NCBI GenBank assembly: GCA_020216655.1 | Contig: JAIWNU010000115.1 | Coordinates: forward strand, 1-19,294 | Origin: Treponema sp. | GTDB lineage: Bacteria; Spirochaetota; Spirochaetia; Treponematales; Breznakiellaceae | DNA length: 19,294 nucleotides | Direction of reading: 5' to 3' | Shown: piece after piece, positions 4,054 to 12,023 of the stretch | How positions within the stretch are numbered: position 1 is the first letter of the stretch | Layout of the letters: each line of letters begins with the position of its first letter | Made by a program: the position numbers and the translations under genes | The notes under the pieces: generated by a model | What the model saw: only the letters and a program-made list of their open reading frames with translations | The model's database searches: none | Told to the model about the DNA's origin: nothing

Positions 4054-4059
4054 AGGAGG
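4054..4059 (+). promoter_or_regulatory. Ribosome-binding site fixing the start at 4065
   Basis: A perfect AGGAGG is placed 5 nt before ATG 4065. It shows that translation of the lipoprotein gene begins at 4065, in the frame that is then interrupted by the G10 tract, and not at the later TTG 4087, which has no Shine-Dalgarno. Confidence 0.8.
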
Positions 4060-4064
4060 TTTAT

Positions 4065-5073
4065 ATGACGCATTACAAAAGTTTTATTGGTAAACTCATG
4101 CGGGGGGGGGGTACTCCTCAGCATCGGTTTAGTTCTTTCCTGCTCCCTTGGGAATACACCGGCTACTGTTAAGGCTACCCCGGCGATTCAAGATGTGCCG
4201 GCTATTATCTCCCAACCAAGTCCAAGCGGCGGTATAGACTCATTTCAGGCAAATGTAAAGGTGTATTCAAAGGTCGATCGTATGCCTGCATCGGCTAAGT
4301 TGGTAAGCCAGTACCGTATGGCTACGAAAATAATTGATGGACTTGTGTATACCAGGCTGGATTTCCCCGTGGATCAGGTACATAACATTGCGGCCCGTAC
4401 GATAGTCAGCAACGGCAATGAGATGATCGTGCTGGATTCTGCTAGTGGAAAAGTTGAGTACCGGTTACCCGTACCAGAACAGACCGCTGATTTAGTTAAA
4501 GGCGTCTCTCAAAAAACAACGAGTCTTTTTCAGAAAATAGATGTTCCCCTTTTACGAAAAACTTTTTCTGACCTTCAATGGGATATGGAGAGTAATGAAC
4601 AAAAAACTCATTGGGTTATTCACTACCCAATAGATATGCTTGCCCGTTACAATACCAATCCTGGCCAAAAGTTGCAGTCCTTTAAGCTATATCTGGATGA
4701 AGCAAATGGGACCGTTGCTGGTTATGAGCAGATAATGGTAGAAGAGGATGGAACGATAATTACCACAAAAAATACCACCTTGTACACCGAAAAAGATGGG
4801 GTCCCTATTCCTATAGGCACAGTCCAGGATACTCATTATGACAAACCCTATACCATCGATACAAGCGATTCTTCTGTTCCCCCTTACAACGAAGAGACCG
4901 CCCCTGAAATAAGTGCCGCGGAAGCCCAACAGCTCATAGAATCTGGCCAAGCCATAGAACTTAATACGATGAGCGGGGATCCTTCGAATCCGGATTATAC
5001 CGAACAAACGATTGCGGTATACGACAGTATAGAACTAAATACTGCTGCGGATATTTTATTTAAGGTCTTTTAA
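4065..5073 (+). CDS. Lipoprotein of unknown function, frame split by a G10 tract
   Basis: Translation should start at ATG 4065 (AGGAGG 5 nt upstream). With the ten G's present that frame ends at TAA 4170-4172 after 35 residues. With nine (or twelve) G's it joins the long frame to TAA 5071 and gives a classic lipoprotein signal: MTHYKSFIGKLMRGG followed by VLLSIGLVLSC. Read from TTG 4087 instead, the signal peptide would have no positive charge and no ribosome-binding site, so the split is real in this sequence. The mature part (about 310 residues) is rich in short beta strands (SFKLYLDEANGTVAGYEQIM and similar), faintly like LolA-type lipoprotein-binding folds, but I cannot assign a family. 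It is the first gene of a five-gene export-targeted cluster; the next gene starts 10 nt after its stop. Confidence 0.75.
4102..4111 (+). repeat. Homopolymeric G10 tract inside a lipoprotein signal sequence
   Basis: Ten consecutive G's lie between the basic N-region and the hydrophobic core of the signal peptide. Nine or twelve G's restore the frame; ten do not. Tracts of this type change length by slipped-strand mispairing, and poly-G phase variation is known in Treponema pallidum. Confidence 0.9.
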
Positions 5074-5083
5074 AAGGGGGAAC

Positions 5084-6442
5084 ATGATGAAACAGAGAAT
5101 TATTGCCTGTATAGTGCTCCTTGTATTTTCTAGCAGCCTTTTTGCCGATACCACGACATCTCTATACGGGATATTTTTTCCGGGTATTAAAACTAATTAT
5201 TCCGTGCCAGGCGAATCTACCAGTAAAAACACCGCATCGGTAGCTATGGAACAGCAATTAAAGGATGCCTATACCCTCTTCGGCAATTATCAACAACAGG
5301 TGGTAATTGGTCACAGTCAGGGTGGTTTTCGTGCTTTGGGCTATGCGAACTACCTAAAGGAAAAAGGAGAGGCGGATAAACTTAAGGCTGTAATATCCAT
5401 CGGAGCTCCTGCCCGAGGCTTTACGCCCCTTATAAAGGGGAAGGATGATCTATCGAGGAGAATTGATGACAAGGTAAAAGCAACCATAAACGGTATTAAT
5501 AGCTGTTTTAGTGTATTTGGTGTAGTAAATGCAGTGAGTGCATGGCCATTTTTAGGAGCTTTGAATACGACACTACAGGGCCTGTATCAATTTGTTTTTC
5601 CATTTTTTTTAAATGGTTTTAAATATAATGATTGGGCGTCTCCAAGCTCCGTTAAAATGATGATGAACGTACTTGGCGATGTGGTAAGCAATGATGTTAT
5701 GAGAGATTTTACACCTGGTAGCGATTATATACGTAACAGGATTGCTCCAACTTATATTCCAGCGCAAGGGCATTATGTTAAGATAAAAGTTGGAAAAATA
5801 TTATGGTTCGATATCTACAAAACAATTTGGGTGATGGATAAGCCGGCTCAAATGGAGTATAAAATGCCACCCAATTTAAATGTTGGTTTTGTTGTTGGTG
5901 AAGGAAATGTAAAGGATATGGTACTTGAATCAATAAAAAATAATGAATCTATGTATAATTTGGTAAATGCTTTTTTTTCGGGTATGCCACCATTAATGGC
6001 AATATCTGCAGAACTGAACATAGTATTAGCAGCAGTAGCTTTAAGTTCTGCATTGGCTTGTCCAATTAATTGGGGGGCCTGGGCTGCTGTAGGTTATTAT
6101 TCAGTACAAACATCATATGCATTAAATGCATTATTTATTTGGGCGGATTTTAATAATGTATTCAATCGTGATATCCTTCTTACCAACAGCTCCGATGGCT
6201 TTATCCCATATGCTGCCCAGAAATGGGACCCCGTAACAGAACTGGGCTGCAAAAGTATATCAGATAAGGGCAGTTACGTGGTCTACGACGTGAACCATTA
6301 CACCGAACTTGAGGACGACCGCATCTGGGGTATCGGGGGTGATGACTACAATCCAAAAGAAAATGGGAAAGTGCATGAGTGGACATACGAGACAACTAAA
6401 CAATGGTTTGGTTCGAATTATTTAATGATGATGAACCACTAA
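5084..6442 (+). CDS. Secreted alpha/beta-hydrolase (lipase/esterase-like)
   Basis: 452 residues with a cleavable signal peptide (MMKQRIIACIVLLVFSSSLFA, cut before Asp22). The nucleophile elbow is GHSQGG with Ser78, after the strand QQVVI and before the helix FRALGYANYL. A late SDGFIP (Asp371) and VNHYTE (His405) complete a likely Ser-Asp-His triad in the order and spacing of lipases. Between them is a large cap-like insertion with two hydrophobic stretches (near 160-190 and 300-345), which may bind lipid or membrane. The substrate is unknown; an ester or lipid at the envelope is the natural guess. AAGGGGG precedes the start, and ATG 5087 is an equally good alternative. Sequence coding the middle (about 5500-6180) is visibly more AT-rich than both ends of the gene. 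Confidence 0.75.
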   Translation: MMKQRIIACIVLLVFSSSLFADTTTSLYGIFFPGIKTNYSVPGESTSKNTASVAMEQQLKDAYTLFGNYQQQVVIGHSQGGFRALGYANYLKEKGEADKLKAVISIGAPARGFTPLIKGKDDLSRRIDDKVKATINGINSCFSVFGVVNAVSAWPFLGALNTTLQGLYQFVFPFFLNGFKYNDWASPSSVKMMMNVLGDVVSNDVMRDFTPGSDYIRNRIAPTYIPAQGHYVKIKVGKILWFDIYKTIWVMDKPAQMEYKMPPNLNVGFVVGEGNVKDMVLESIKNNESMYNLVNAFFSGMPPLMAISAELNIVLAAVALSSALACPINWGAWAAVGYYSVQTSYALNALFIWADFNNVFNRDILLTNSSDGFIPYAAQKWDPVTELGCKSISDKGSYVVYDVNHYTELEDDRIWGIGGDDYNPKENGKVHEWTYETTKQWFGSNYLMMMNH

Positions 6443-6447
6443 AAGAC

Positions 6448-6487
6448 TAGTAGCCCCCTGCAGGCTAGCCCCTCAGGTGGGCTACTA
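6448..6487 (+). terminator. Intergenic stem-loop
   Basis: TAGTAGCCC (6448-6456) pairs perfectly with GGGCTACTA (6479-6487) around a 22-nt loop, directly after the hydrolase stop. The run after it is A-rich (AAAA), not T-rich, so it is a poor rho-independent terminator for the + strand. It more likely stabilises an upstream message or tunes expression of the next gene. Confidence 0.4.
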
Positions 6488-6503
6488 AAAAGTATAAGGA
6501 CGA

Positions 6504-7859
6504 ATGATGAACACTAAAAACGATATGCGATGGCTAGTTATAGGTTCACTGCTTCTTATCAGCAGCTGTGGCTGTCACTTCCCCATTACGAGTCACAGCA
6601 ATGGAGAGGACGTTTCAACGATAATGACCGATGTGGTGCTGCAGCAGAAGGGGGTATATCATGGACCAATCTTTAATTTGCAGCAAGAAGATTCCTACGT
6701 ATATTTAAGAGGGAATAGTATTGTTAAATACGATCTTTCTCAACATAGTATAAAGTGGGAGCGAAAGGAAACAGAACTATTTGAACAAAATCACAATGCT
6801 GATTATGGAGTTTCAGACATTATACTTGCTGAAGAAATATATGCACCTATAAGAACATATGATGACAATATGTATTTCAAATCCCCCTACCTAGTTGCAA
6901 TAGATAAAGAGACCGGAGGTGTAATAAAAAGGATTCGCATATTAGACCAGAAATATATTTATAGTTATAGATGGGTAAAGTATAACAGTAAACTCTTCTT
7001 TGGCTATCGCGGTCAGAGTTATACCGATCGTGATGGCTTTGGGTACATCGACCTGAATGAGCTTAAAACAGATACAGAATCGACGGAGGAGAATGCCTAC
7101 ACTGCAGCGGTACATACGATTATGGAGATACCTCAAAATTGTGCTGCCCTTTATGGCGTTAGTGCCCTTCCGGGGGACAGTTATGGCTATGCTGTCTGGT
7201 ATCCCTGCAAGGACACCATTGCAAGCGGAGATGAAGGCCTGCCCCAGCATGGCATAATGGCGATTAACCTGCAGACCGGTGGGATTGAGTGGAAGGATGA
7301 AAGCTACCAGGCAGGTTTAGGAGCAGATATACAATCTATTACTGATAAATATGTGTTTGCCTTTGAACGGAACAAAGTCATAGATAAACGGGGTGTTGCA
7401 ATTTATAAAAAAGAAACAGGAGAGAGGTTAAAGAGTCTATGGAATGTATGGAGCGCCAATAAAGACTTTATTTGGGATAAAGAGAATCAAAGAATATACT
7501 TAACAACAGGTACCGCTATAGAAGAATTTCCTGAGGTTGCGGCTATCTACTGTTTGAATGCTGAGACTGGGGACATCATCTGGAGCCGTTACCGGGATTG
7601 GAGTGAACCCCAGATAGGGATGCAGCCTCAGGTGCACCAGGGGATTCTGTATGTGCCGACAGCCCGGTATCTCGAACTCTACGATGCTTCCAATGGGAAA
7701 CCGCTGGGGCGGGATGCGAGAGTCTGGGGTGATGGGGAGAACTTTGGGGACTCAGCGGTGTGGAACAACTGCATATTCTTTCATGACGGCAGAGACACCC
7801 TTTTTGGCGTTGCCATGAACTGGAAGGTTGTAAACGGCCAACTGGTAAAAGGAGAATAG
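6504..7859 (+). CDS. PQQ-type beta-propeller lipoprotein
   Basis: 451 residues. The signal peptide is MMNTKNDMRWLVIGSLLLIS with a lipobox ending at Cys22 (LISSC), so it should be a membrane-anchored lipoprotein. The mature part shows repeated propeller blades of the PQQ-like type, with strands such as LVAIDKETGGVIKRI, GIMAINLQTGGIEW, AIYCLNAETGDIIWSR and LYVPTARYLELYDASNGKPL, each with the A-x-(D/N)-x-x-T-G turn. Such propellers usually serve as binding scaffolds; I see no sign that PQQ cofactor is used, and the role is unknown. AAGGA sits about 5 nt before ATG 6504. Codons in 7540-7860 are more GC-rich than those in 6680-7060 and 7330-7530. Confidence 0.7.
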   Translation: MMNTKNDMRWLVIGSLLLISSCGCHFPITSHSNGEDVSTIMTDVVLQQKGVYHGPIFNLQQEDSYVYLRGNSIVKYDLSQHSIKWERKETELFEQNHNADYGVSDIILAEEIYAPIRTYDDNMYFKSPYLVAIDKETGGVIKRIRILDQKYIYSYRWVKYNSKLFFGYRGQSYTDRDGFGYIDLNELKTDTESTEENAYTAAVHTIMEIPQNCAALYGVSALPGDSYGYAVWYPCKDTIASGDEGLPQHGIMAINLQTGGIEWKDESYQAGLGADIQSITDKYVFAFERNKVIDKRGVAIYKKETGERLKSLWNVWSANKDFIWDKENQRIYLTTGTAIEEFPEVAAIYCLNAETGDIIWSRYRDWSEPQIGMQPQVHQGILYVPTARYLELYDASNGKPLGRDARVWGDGENFGDSAVWNNCIFFHDGRDTLFGVAMNWKVVNGQLVKGE

Positions 7860-7870
7860 GATTAAGGTCT

Positions 7871-8539
7871 ATGAAAAAAGTTATTATAATGCTCCTCACC
7901 TTTATGATGTTTTCATGTACCATGGAGGTAAAAACAATTTTAGTGCGGGCTATTTTTGAACATTCCTATGGCAGTCCGCTGGGAATTCAGGTTTTCGTGG
8001 AAAGTACAGAGGGATATTCCCTTGATGCCGCACGGGTTATTGTAAAGACTCCCTCTGGAATGACCCAATTACTACGATATAATGGAACCCGCGCCTATTA
8101 TGAGGGAACCATACAAAGTCCGGAAGGTGGTGTATATACAATATTCGCAGAAAGCAAGGCTATTCAGAATGGGATGCAACTTTCGGTTCCCTGTAATATT
8201 ATTGCTGGAACTCCTGATATTTTTGATATTCAAGATAGTGGTGGAAAATCTTCCTTAAAGGGAGAAAAACTAAATCATTCAAAAGATATCAGTATTAGCT
8301 GGAATACAATACAGAACACTACAACATACATTGTTAGGGTGTATCAAAATGCAGCTCTTGTATTTGTGAAGGTCCTTAAAGATCAAGCAGTATTAATTCC
8401 GGCGGATACCCTGAATGCCGGTACTTACTATGTTAGTGTAGAAGCCCAGAGCATCGCAGGCGATCCTTTGTTGGGAGATAAACCCTATTACACGCTTTCT
8501 AGTGGCACAGGGAGTAGTTTTGTATGTACCCTAGAATAA
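7871..8539 (+). CDS. Small lipoprotein with a fibronectin III-like C-terminal half
   Basis: 222 residues. It has a short signal (MKKVIIMLLTFMMFS) and a lipobox Cys16 in FMMFSC. Residues about 135-215 have the strand pattern of an Ig/fibronectin type III domain: ISISWNTIQNTTTYIVRVYQ, later NAGTYYVSVEAQ. The N-terminal half is also beta-rich (IQVFVESTEGYSLDAARVIV). No catalytic motif is visible; an adhesion or scaffold role would fit but is inference. It starts 11 nt after the propeller gene and its last 16 nt overlap the protease gene, so it is very likely co-transcribed and translationally coupled with it. Confidence 0.65.
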   Translation: MKKVIIMLLTFMMFSCTMEVKTILVRAIFEHSYGSPLGIQVFVESTEGYSLDAARVIVKTPSGMTQLLRYNGTRAYYEGTIQSPEGGVYTIFAESKAIQNGMQLSVPCNIIAGTPDIFDIQDSGGKSSLKGEKLNHSKDISISWNTIQNTTTYIVRVYQNAALVFVKVLKDQAVLIPADTLNAGTYYVSVEAQSIAGDPLLGDKPYYTLSSGTGSSFVCTLE

Positions 8540-10290
8540 GTATTATCATAGGGAGTTTGTTTTTAATAGTTTCCTGTAGCCATCCTGTAATGGAACTTAC
8601 CGAAACGGTACATATTCTTTTTCCCTCTGCACAGGCTTCTTATGAAGAAGGTAGTCCGGTTTCCCTTGTGGCTGATACAAATGTCCAATGGTATAGTACG
8701 ATCGATGGCTATCTGGGTGAAGGTAAAACCCTGTTGGTGTATCTTACAAGGGGATACCATACTATACGAGCTCAGAAGGGTGCAGCCATAGGTGAAATCC
8801 CTCTTACTATTACGCCGATACGCTTTATTCCTAATTCCTGGCGAACCGTATTGCTCCGTCAGGGCCAGCAAAATCTTGCTCTGCCATTGGGTACCTATAT
8901 ACCATTCCTCTGTGGAAACACTGCAGAAATGGCGGTAACCATAACATTAGCGCCAAACGCAAAGATGATACGGGTTGACACTAATAGAGATAGCTCAGAA
9001 CCCTTCCGTGATATTGCAATGGCTCTTCCCCCTGGAATAACAGCAATACAAAAGCGATTATTATCCCGCTCCAATTCATCGGTTTTATCCAAAAATACCA
9101 TCTCCCCAATTGAACCAGGGACAATAAGAGCCTTCCATGTGGCAGATCCTTCTAAAGGAACAAACGCTCCTGGTTGGGAAATAACAGCCCGCTGTGCATT
9201 TTCTTCGGACCAGTTTGTACTTTGGGTTGATACATCGGATGCTCTTTCAGATGAGGACCTCCATACCTTCTTTACAAAAATAACGACCCATGTCTTACCA
9301 AGGGTTCAAAAGATAATTGGAGTCCATCTAGATCCTGATGGCGATGGGGTGTTTAACATTGTAATGACAGGAAAATTAAATCAACAACGGCTTGCTATTG
9401 GGTTCTTTAATCCCTGTGACTTTTTCCCCTACAATAACAACGAACAAGATGTCGCATACAATCCTACCTCTAATGAGTTAGATAGTATATACTGCGGCAT
9501 TATCGATGAACAGGACTCGGCCTTTAGAATACCATCGTTACTAGCTACAATTGCCCATGAATATCAGCATTTGTGCCGGTTTAGCCGGAAAACTTATAGC
9601 AGATTATTGCAGGGATGGGATAATCCCCCGATAGAAGACACTTCATTTGATGAAGCCGCCTCCCATCTTATGGAGAACCTTGTCGGATATGGGATAAGTG
9701 GTGGAAACATTCTCTTTGTTCAAAAGTATTTACAAAATCCTGATCGGATTTCTCTTACTGCACGGGACAGGGATGGCAGCACCGATAGTGCCGGAAAACG
9801 GGGTATGGGAGCTCTCTTTTTGTTTTATTGTTTAGAACAGCAAGGTGGTTTCCATATATCTGGTGATGAGATCTATGATGATGGCGGGTTTGTTTTTTTT
9901 AAAAATAGTATCGATTATGCCGGTACCGGTTGGAATTATATCCAGCAACGTTTTAATATGGATCTCGCATCCATCCTCTTTATGTTTGGAAAGAGCATTG
10001 TTTCTTATCCTTTTAGTAATAAATCAATTTCTATTGTCTTGGACCCAGAAACAGGGGAGCCGATAACACTTAACCCATATTTAGGAACCATAGCTGCTTC
10101 AGAACCGAATATCCCTACCTATACCCTTAATGGACCAGCTAAGATTGAACTATCTGGTCCATTTACTGTGTTGGTAAATTCTGTTGTATTTCTTAAGGAT
10201 TGGCAACTTACAACCCAGAATCATATTACCTTGTCCCAGAATAGCAAGAATTGCACTGGTATACTTGGATTATTTATGGTGAATAATTAA
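8524..10290 (+). CDS. M30 (hyicolysin)-like zinc metalloprotease lipoprotein
   Basis: 588 residues. The signal (MYPRISIIIGSLFLIVS) ends in a lipobox with Cys18. The zinc motif HEYQH is at 345-349 within LLATIAHEYQHLCRF, and a downstream FDEAASHLMENLVGYG offers Glu377 as third ligand, the arrangement of the M30 hyicolysin group. A D-x-D-x-D-G calcium-type loop (DPDGDGVFNIVM, about 276-287) precedes it, as in relatives. Residues 25-100 form a beta-rich N-terminal domain and the end (from about 520) another. It should be a surface or periplasmic protease. GGAG lies 9 nt before ATG 8524, inside the end of the previous gene. No terminator is evident after the stop. Confidence 0.7.
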   Translation: MYPRISIIIGSLFLIVSCSHPVMELTETVHILFPSAQASYEEGSPVSLVADTNVQWYSTIDGYLGEGKTLLVYLTRGYHTIRAQKGAAIGEIPLTITPIRFIPNSWRTVLLRQGQQNLALPLGTYIPFLCGNTAEMAVTITLAPNAKMIRVDTNRDSSEPFRDIAMALPPGITAIQKRLLSRSNSSVLSKNTISPIEPGTIRAFHVADPSKGTNAPGWEITARCAFSSDQFVLWVDTSDALSDEDLHTFFTKITTHVLPRVQKIIGVHLDPDGDGVFNIVMTGKLNQQRLAIGFFNPCDFFPYNNNEQDVAYNPTSNELDSIYCGIIDEQDSAFRIPSLLATIAHEYQHLCRFSRKTYSRLLQGWDNPPIEDTSFDEAASHLMENLVGYGISGGNILFVQKYLQNPDRISLTARDRDGSTDSAGKRGMGALFLFYCLEQQGGFHISGDEIYDDGGFVFFKNSIDYAGTGWNYIQQRFNMDLASILFMFGKSIVSYPFSNKSISIVLDPETGEPITLNPYLGTIAASEPNIPTYTLNGPAKIELSGPFTVLVNSVVFLKDWQLTTQNHITLSQNSKNCTGILGLFMVNN

Positions 10291-10975: not shown

Positions 10976-12023
10976 ATGTTGAATAAATTGTTGGTCCTTA
11001 TAATTGGAGCAAGCGGTTTTGCGTTATTCCTTTTTTCTGCTGGTTTGTTGCTGCTGCCTCGTAAAAGAGCTGTTACGTATGTAAGTTTTGCCTTTTTTTT
11101 ATATCTTGCTCTAGTATTTATTCTCTCTTCTGCGGTACATTCTAATTTTATCAATACTCCCGATTATATAGATCCTCCGATAATAACATGGGGTGGAACG
11201 CTTCTCTTTCTTTAACTTATCTTTTTAACCGAAAACGGTGATTTCTCTATTCGGAGAATTCTATACTTATTCATTCCACCCCTCTTACTTACCATGAGTT
11301 CATTAAGTACCTGCCTTCTCAAAGAACAGGTTCAGCAATCATTTTTTTTACTTCATATCAATCTATCAATTTTATGGGTCATTTTCTGCTGTTCACTGTT
11401 TATATTATACGCTATACGACACAAGACAAGGCTCAATCGAATTCGCTCCAAGAACACTGATTTTTACATTTTTATTGCCTTGAGTGTGCTAGTGTGGAGT
11501 ATATACTTTATCACAACGAACATTAAAGTAAATTATAATGTGGTTTCTGCTGCCGCAACCATTTTAATTCTGATGTTATATTTTTATCACCTGCGTCACC
11601 CAGAAATTTTGCTCATAGCAGATCAGGAAATTTACAAAACACCTAAACACGGAAGATCTAAAATTACCCATTTGGATAAAAACAAAACCATACATCACTT
11701 GCAGAATATTATGGAAGAAGAACAACCATATCTCCAGGAAGATCTTTCACTCCCCGACTTGGCAGATATGGCAGGTTTGAGTACCCATCAACTTTCGGAA
11801 ATACTCAACCACGAGCTCGGTATAACTTTTAAGACCTTTATCAACCGGTATCGAGTACGGGATGCCAAAATATATCTTGATAAAAAAAACGGAAGCCTCA
11901 ATCCTCAGCATTGCTCTCGAATGTGGCTTCCGTTCAAAATCAGCCTTTAATAAGCGGTTCTATGAAGAAACTGGAATGACCCCCACTGAATTTCGCCACA
12001 GAACACAGGATAGTCTCCTATGA
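10976..12023 (+). pseudogene. AraC-family regulator with 7TM N-terminus, interrupted twice
   Basis: Read as one gene it encodes seven hydrophobic segments (first LLVLIIGASGFALFLFSAGL, last near VSAAATILILMLYFYHL) followed by a complete AraC DNA-binding domain: LPDLADMAGLSTHQLSEIL for the first helix-turn-helix, then ALECGFRSKSAFNKRFYEET and TPTEFR for the second. Two lesions are present. An in-frame TAA at 11213-11215 (codon 80) falls in TM3, with the frame open on both sides. A run of eight A's at 11882-11889 shifts the frame between the two HTH motifs; seven A's would restore it through to TGA 12021. The family normally acts as a membrane-tethered transcription factor. No Shine-Dalgarno is evident before ATG 10976. 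Its end lies 21 bp from the convergent FG-GAP gene. Confidence 0.75.

Follow-up and report, generated by a model that had tools for sequence, protein, structure and literature searches.

A poly-G tract in the signal-peptide coding sequence of a spirochaete lipoprotein gene as a probable phase-variation switch

The gene that we name lipo1 lies in a 19,294-nucleotide stretch of spirochaete DNA (hereafter the window) and carries ten consecutive G's in the sequence coding for its predicted lipoprotein signal peptide. This G10 tract is best explained as a reversible on/off switch of lipo1 acting through slipped-strand copying errors, a reading that we consider probable. lipo1 is likely to be switched by chance copying slips because the tract splits the export signal and because relatives bear like or different short repeats at its 5' end. 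Phase variation had been proposed in a preliminary description of the locus. It is now supported by a G tract at the matching site in a genome of another genus (G017), by repeats of different kinds at the start of lipo1 in three more genomes, and by homologues whose lipoprotein signal peptide is ordinary and in frame.

Organization of the lipo1 locus

The window corresponds to contig C127 in a draft genome of 2,660,714 bases in 251 contigs (89.6% complete) from a genus that we take to be Gracilinema. The preliminary description stated that the G10 tract splits a lipoprotein signal; the ribosome-binding site, the ATG, the tract, the stop codon and the one-base offset were all confirmed on the window sequence (Table 1). 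As sequenced, the upstream frame yields a product of 35 residues and is displaced by one base, across the tract, from the lipo1 main frame. The latter contains the hydrophobic core, has its lipobox Cys codon at 4141–4143 (counted by eye) and ends with the codon at 5071–5073. The tract begins 37 bases past the ATG, between the basic N-region and the hydrophobic core of the signal peptide. The earliest start codon in the main frame is TTG at 4087. Inspection by eye shows no ribosome site ahead of it, and neither lysine nor arginine is encoded from there to the lipobox. The tract thus combines above-threshold length within a reading frame with a length that sets the frame, as in phase variation by simple sequence repeats. 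A consensus promoter scan of the window returned 16 sites vs 16.9 in shuffles, none of them just upstream of lipo1 on its strand.

Table 1. Features of the lipo1 locus (positions in the window)
Feature	Position	Strand	Remarks
Ribosome-binding site	4054..4059	+	AGGAGG
Upstream frame	4065..4172	+	ATG at 4065, basic N-region, G tract, stop TAA at 4170-4172
lipo1 main frame	4069..5073	+	predicted LolA/LolB-like domain after lipobox Cys
G10 tract	4102..4111	+	proposed switch
hyd2	5084..6442	+	alpha/beta hydrolase, signal-peptide-like start and GHSQGG
RNA hairpin between hyd2 and pqq3	6448..6487	+	-25.8 kcal/mol, z -3.07
pqq3	6504..7859	+	predicted lipoprotein; Pfam PQQ_2 just above cut-off
lp4	7871..8539	+	small predicted lipoprotein
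zn5	8524..10290	+	predicted lipoprotein; HEYQH as in zinc peptidases (motif by eye)

The product of lipo1 is predicted to be a lipoprotein with a LolA/LolB-like domain, since the protein models as a LolA/LolB-like half-barrel. Its identity with members of the LolA/LolB superfamily is 8–10% in the three rows compared; one of 19 lipo1 members matched Pfam LolA at E 0.01 or better (E 6.5e-4), and a nine-sequence lipo1 profile found no match among PDB chains at E up to 1.

Repeats at the 5' end of lipo1 in related genomes

The 5' ends of lipo1 were read in 24 copies, using the repeat thresholds given in the accessible part of PMC5953494 (e.g. at least nine for G/C runs). Omitted from this set were L011 and L012 (the same records as G403 and G320), L028 and L032 (match beginning in mid-protein or without the signal-peptide region), L173 (located at a contig edge), L200 (which is the latter half of the G714 copy), the weakly matching L174 and L201, and the fragments L029, L033 and L202. 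An above-threshold repeat is present in four of the 24 copies, namely those of the window genome (G000), G017 and G019 and the first copy of G289. The T9/T8 pair of G246 adds two copies whose A/T runs are shorter than the threshold usually applied, and 18 copies show no such repeat.

The G017 orthologue, from another genus of the same family, encodes a protein 54–55% identical to that of the window and has a C followed by nine G's at the matching signal-peptide position, 43 nt past an ATG with GGGAGG. Its frames are likewise one base apart, and its main frame has no start codon ahead of the lipobox. The window and G017 copies, the two poly-G copies read as DNA, are both off and in the same register. 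Homopolymers of ten are error-prone and the window genome is a draft, so an assembly or sequencing error could be suspected, the true tract being in frame and lipo1 simply on. We judge this improbable: G017 was assembled separately and carries its same-site tract also one base off, and a mistake in length would leave the tract itself in place.

The comparison of the same two genes also bears on whether lipo1 is a decaying gene, in which the frame break would be a dead mutation and the tract incidental. lipo1 is indeed off as sequenced, and two downstream genes are broken in G017 (L034, about 6384-8498), where lp4 (frameshifted) and zn5 (internal TGA) are each in two pieces, neither break lying at a long repeat or homopolymer tract. 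Against decay, the main frame is open for 320 codons in the window and for about as many in G017, and the two differ at fractions of 0.35, 0.27 and 0.64 at codon positions 1, 2 and 3, a bias that, on this sequence comparison, is that of a conserved protein. Among three cassette genes compared, lipo1 is moreover the best conserved (54% identity, against 47 and 39%), and the four genes downstream of it in the window are all open. Decay is accordingly the account to which we give the least credence, and a very unlikely one.

Repeats of other kinds occupy the front of lipo1 in further copies. In G019, contig C93 ends with a ribosome site, a lysine-rich start and then (TTCC)n, and contig C120 starts with (TTCC)n followed by the remainder of lipo1. 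Runs of at least four TTCC units occur in this 4.9 Mb genome at these two places only, and we infer that the two contigs are neighbours. In G289, an octamer array, (GAAGTATT)10.4, ends 40 nt upstream of the lipo1 ATG. These two cases weigh against programmed slippage, in which the DNA would remain out of frame by one base and a fixed full-length fraction would arise from slips of RNA polymerase or the ribosome on the G run. The shared off register of the window and G017 copies fits such a scheme, but the TTCC array and a repeat placed upstream of the start codon cannot act by homopolymer slippage. Programmed slippage is disfavoured because these non-homopolymer repeats also front lipo1, and we rate its chances as low. 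Lastly, G246 contains a tandem duplication of 4,792 bases whose copies are 99.0% identical, with 46 mismatches and 2 gaps. One of the gaps is the T9/T8 difference in the lipo1 signal peptide; the T9 copy is in frame and the T8 copy out. This difference may be an assembly error; if real, it would be, like the contig break at the G019 array, an indirect sign that repeat length varies. Past the T tract the two copies differ at two codons of lipo1 and at none of hyd2.

In many lipo1 homologues the protein opens on an ordinary lipoprotein signal peptide that is read in frame. The copies read as DNA gave no instance of homologues beginning downstream with a different signal peptide, the observation that the preliminary description had named as contrary to a switch. 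A protein 71% identical (P0002) has SCGGGV at the matching point, which points to a G tract there as well. The annotated starts of P0003 and P0004 lie inside the lipo1 main frame, as a gene caller would place them if the gene were off; that of P0005 does too, but its contig is 1,211 bases long. Judging by where P0001, P0003 and P0004 start, gene callers seem to lose the signal peptides of such genes in the off register.

How unusual the repeats are

In dinucleotide-preserving shuffles of the window, G10 or C10 appeared somewhere in 54 of 500, which means that, at this base composition, such a run is not in itself extraordinary. In the whole window genome three G/C runs reach nine or more: the lipo1 tract, which is the sole run of ten, and two nines. 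A chance run was considered as the origin and rejected, since the tract alone could be chance but its conservation at the same site is hard to explain so. Chance fails to explain the position of G10 within the signal peptide together with its conservation in another genus. A general richness in poly-G was likewise set aside as the cause of the shared tract. Overlapping G9 positions number four in the window genome and 34 in G017, vs hundreds in many family members (573 + 672 in G013), and because they are so few in the two genomes concerned, the shared site is not a by-product of G-rich genomes. Within G004–G034, counts of overlapping G9 positions run into the hundreds in many genomes and peak at 1,245 in G013; some of these positions are at the ends of contigs, possibly as sequencing artefacts, and others lie well within contigs.

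The window and 18 fetched regions together span 276,685 bases, in which five repeats pass the thresholds, four of them at the 5' end of lipo1 and the fifth, a three-copy hexamer, in L037. The background, sampled from parts of three genomes only (G246, G019 and G289), has 11 such repeats in 1,016,566 bases. At this rate, 23 lipo1 copies of 200 nt each (the window copy being excluded, as it prompted the search) would be expected to hold about 0.05 repeats, vs three observed. The corresponding probability is about 2 in 100,000, calculated by hand with copies that are not independent and with a three-genome background. The window and G017 tracts may have a single shared origin. For G017 taken alone, 14 poly-G tracts in about 3.2 Mb give a probability of about 2 in 10,000 that one falls in the lipo1 signal peptide.

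The five-gene cassette and its distribution

lipo1 had been described as the head of a five-gene cluster, and this cluster (lipo1, hyd2, pqq3, lp4, zn5) is real and conserved. The window genes were compared by BLASTP (E 1e-3) with the open frames of the 18 regions. All five were found in five regions (L034, L035, L036, L038 and L042), four without a pqq3 match in seven, three in one, two in one, lipo1 alone in three and none in one; some of the gene-poor regions sit at contig ends. In hyd2, GHSQG, Asp371 and His405 are invariant in 13 of 13 sequences, the pattern of alpha/beta-hydrolase lipases or thioesterases with a GxSxG nucleophile elbow, Asp and His, and these residues are presumably catalytic. 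A Foldseek search with hyd2 had no match at E <=0.001; lipases were its top fold matches (best E 1.1e-3). zn5 scored below the cut-off of Pfam DUF2268, and none of the five cassette proteins matched NCBIfam at E <=0.01. The hairpin that follows hyd2 is not succeeded by a T run and may set lipo1 and hyd2 apart from the three genes that follow. Further along the window, at 11294-11950, is an ORF whose C-terminal part resembles, by eye, an AraC-type DNA-binding domain; it may end early.

A search with the single lipo1 sequence matched 4 of 58 relatives and 4 of 195 family genomes, its own genome counted. A profile matched 17 of 390 genomes from the order, 14 of 200 from G050's genus, 17 of 392 from the phylum (some of them weakly) and one of seven from G319's genus. 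The distribution is thus sporadic, few genomes being matched at each rank. A collection of 5.8 billion proteins contained six of the lipo1 family, one being the window's own. lipo1 had no match in G001, of the same genus as the window genome, or in a first contig scan of named relatives; a second scan found it in two gut spirochaete MAGs, which are the G403 and G320 records. Titles and abstract openings, with few subscription papers among them, yielded nothing on the cassette, the gene family or repeat-driven switching in this family.

Other repeats in the lineage

Several further repeats are recorded here as observations in their own right. In the window genome (C219; L004 1311-1319) a G9 tract lies between TTGACA and TGTAAT, ahead of a gene for a small exported protein. 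Apparently the same gene (by eye) has G13 after TTGACA in G017 (L089, L091) and G001 (L177), where the tracts precede TATAAT or ATACAAT. These G9–G13 tracts, in three species, form a candidate promoter switch, and they resemble the promoter tracts of tp0126 and tprL of Treponema pallidum as given in the accessible part of PMC7864442. Another G9 of the window genome (C88:3204-3212; L001 1501-1509) abuts the ATG of an FtsZ-like gene (by eye), at the position expected for the ribosome site. In G017, two nearby genes for short double-glycine-leader peptides, bacteriocin-like by eye, each have G10 after TTGACA (L083 and L084; G017:C12:126337 and 128006). The same genome has an in-frame (TTCC)5 within the signal peptide of a different and larger predicted lipoprotein (L095 1501-1520; G017:C53), whose gene adjoins a beta-barrel-like ORF. 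G246 contains a (CACAG)12.2 array at another locus (L112 12303-12363), a candidate contingency repeat. Several of the 14 tracts of G017 and 16 of G001 are mid-gene, antisense or intergenic, and not all look regulatory.

Proposed mechanism and comparison with known systems

In the mechanism that we propose, slipped-strand mispairing during replication would alter the length of the G tract, which would then vary among cells. At some lengths the two frames would be joined, and the product would be a LolA/LolB-like protein that is exported and anchored by lipid. With the switch off, loss of the signal peptide would mean that no lipoprotein is made, and translation of hyd2, ten bases downstream, may drop by polarity. 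Such an effect on the last three cassette genes is less sure because of the strong hairpin between hyd2 and pqq3. The likely outcome would be a mixed population in which only some cells carry the lipo1 protein in their envelope.

A mechanism of this type is already known. In Neisseria pilC, a G tract is located in the signal-peptide region. It is listed as genic, with 9–20 G's, in the accessible part of PMC5953494. Likewise, in the available portions of PMC3960869 and PMC4534519, Neisseria opa has CTCTT repeats in its signal-peptide coding sequence, and the frame decides whether this exported surface protein is made. A repeat within the signal-peptide coding sequence is what we found in the window and in G017, and opa is most closely matched by the TTCC array of G019. 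The systems differ in that the predicted lipo1 protein is unrelated to Opa and the repeat type varies among lipo1 relatives; pilC, too, concerns a different protein and another phylum. Expression switching has been shown for pilC, whereas for lipo1 it is proposed from sequence. In T. pallidum, tprL and tp0126 have poly-G tracts of 7–11 G's whose length varies within isolates, according to the accessible part of PMC7864442. Those tracts belong to promoters, whereas that of lipo1 is in coding sequence, past the ATG.

Biological significance

In the abstracts consulted, phase variation by simple repeats is described chiefly in host-adapted pathogens. T. caldaria H1T, which apparently belongs to the genus of the window, is a hot-spring isolate that is free-living, non-pathogenic and of biosafety level 1 (PMC3739177). 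The variety of repeats at lipo1 (poly-G, a TTCC array, an octamer array and perhaps poly-T) raises the possibility, which we advance tentatively and hold to be less likely than not to be correct, that the cassette was put under hypermutable repeats several times independently and that its surroundings keep selecting for random switching. If so, a phage, a predator or a bacteriocin using the cassette product could be the selecting agent, and selection for switching would perhaps act outside any vertebrate immune system. If the lipo1 switch works as proposed, spirochaetes outside the pathogens would share this bet-hedging tool, one gene cassette would be marked as its target, and the selection behind switching could be studied in a safe setting.
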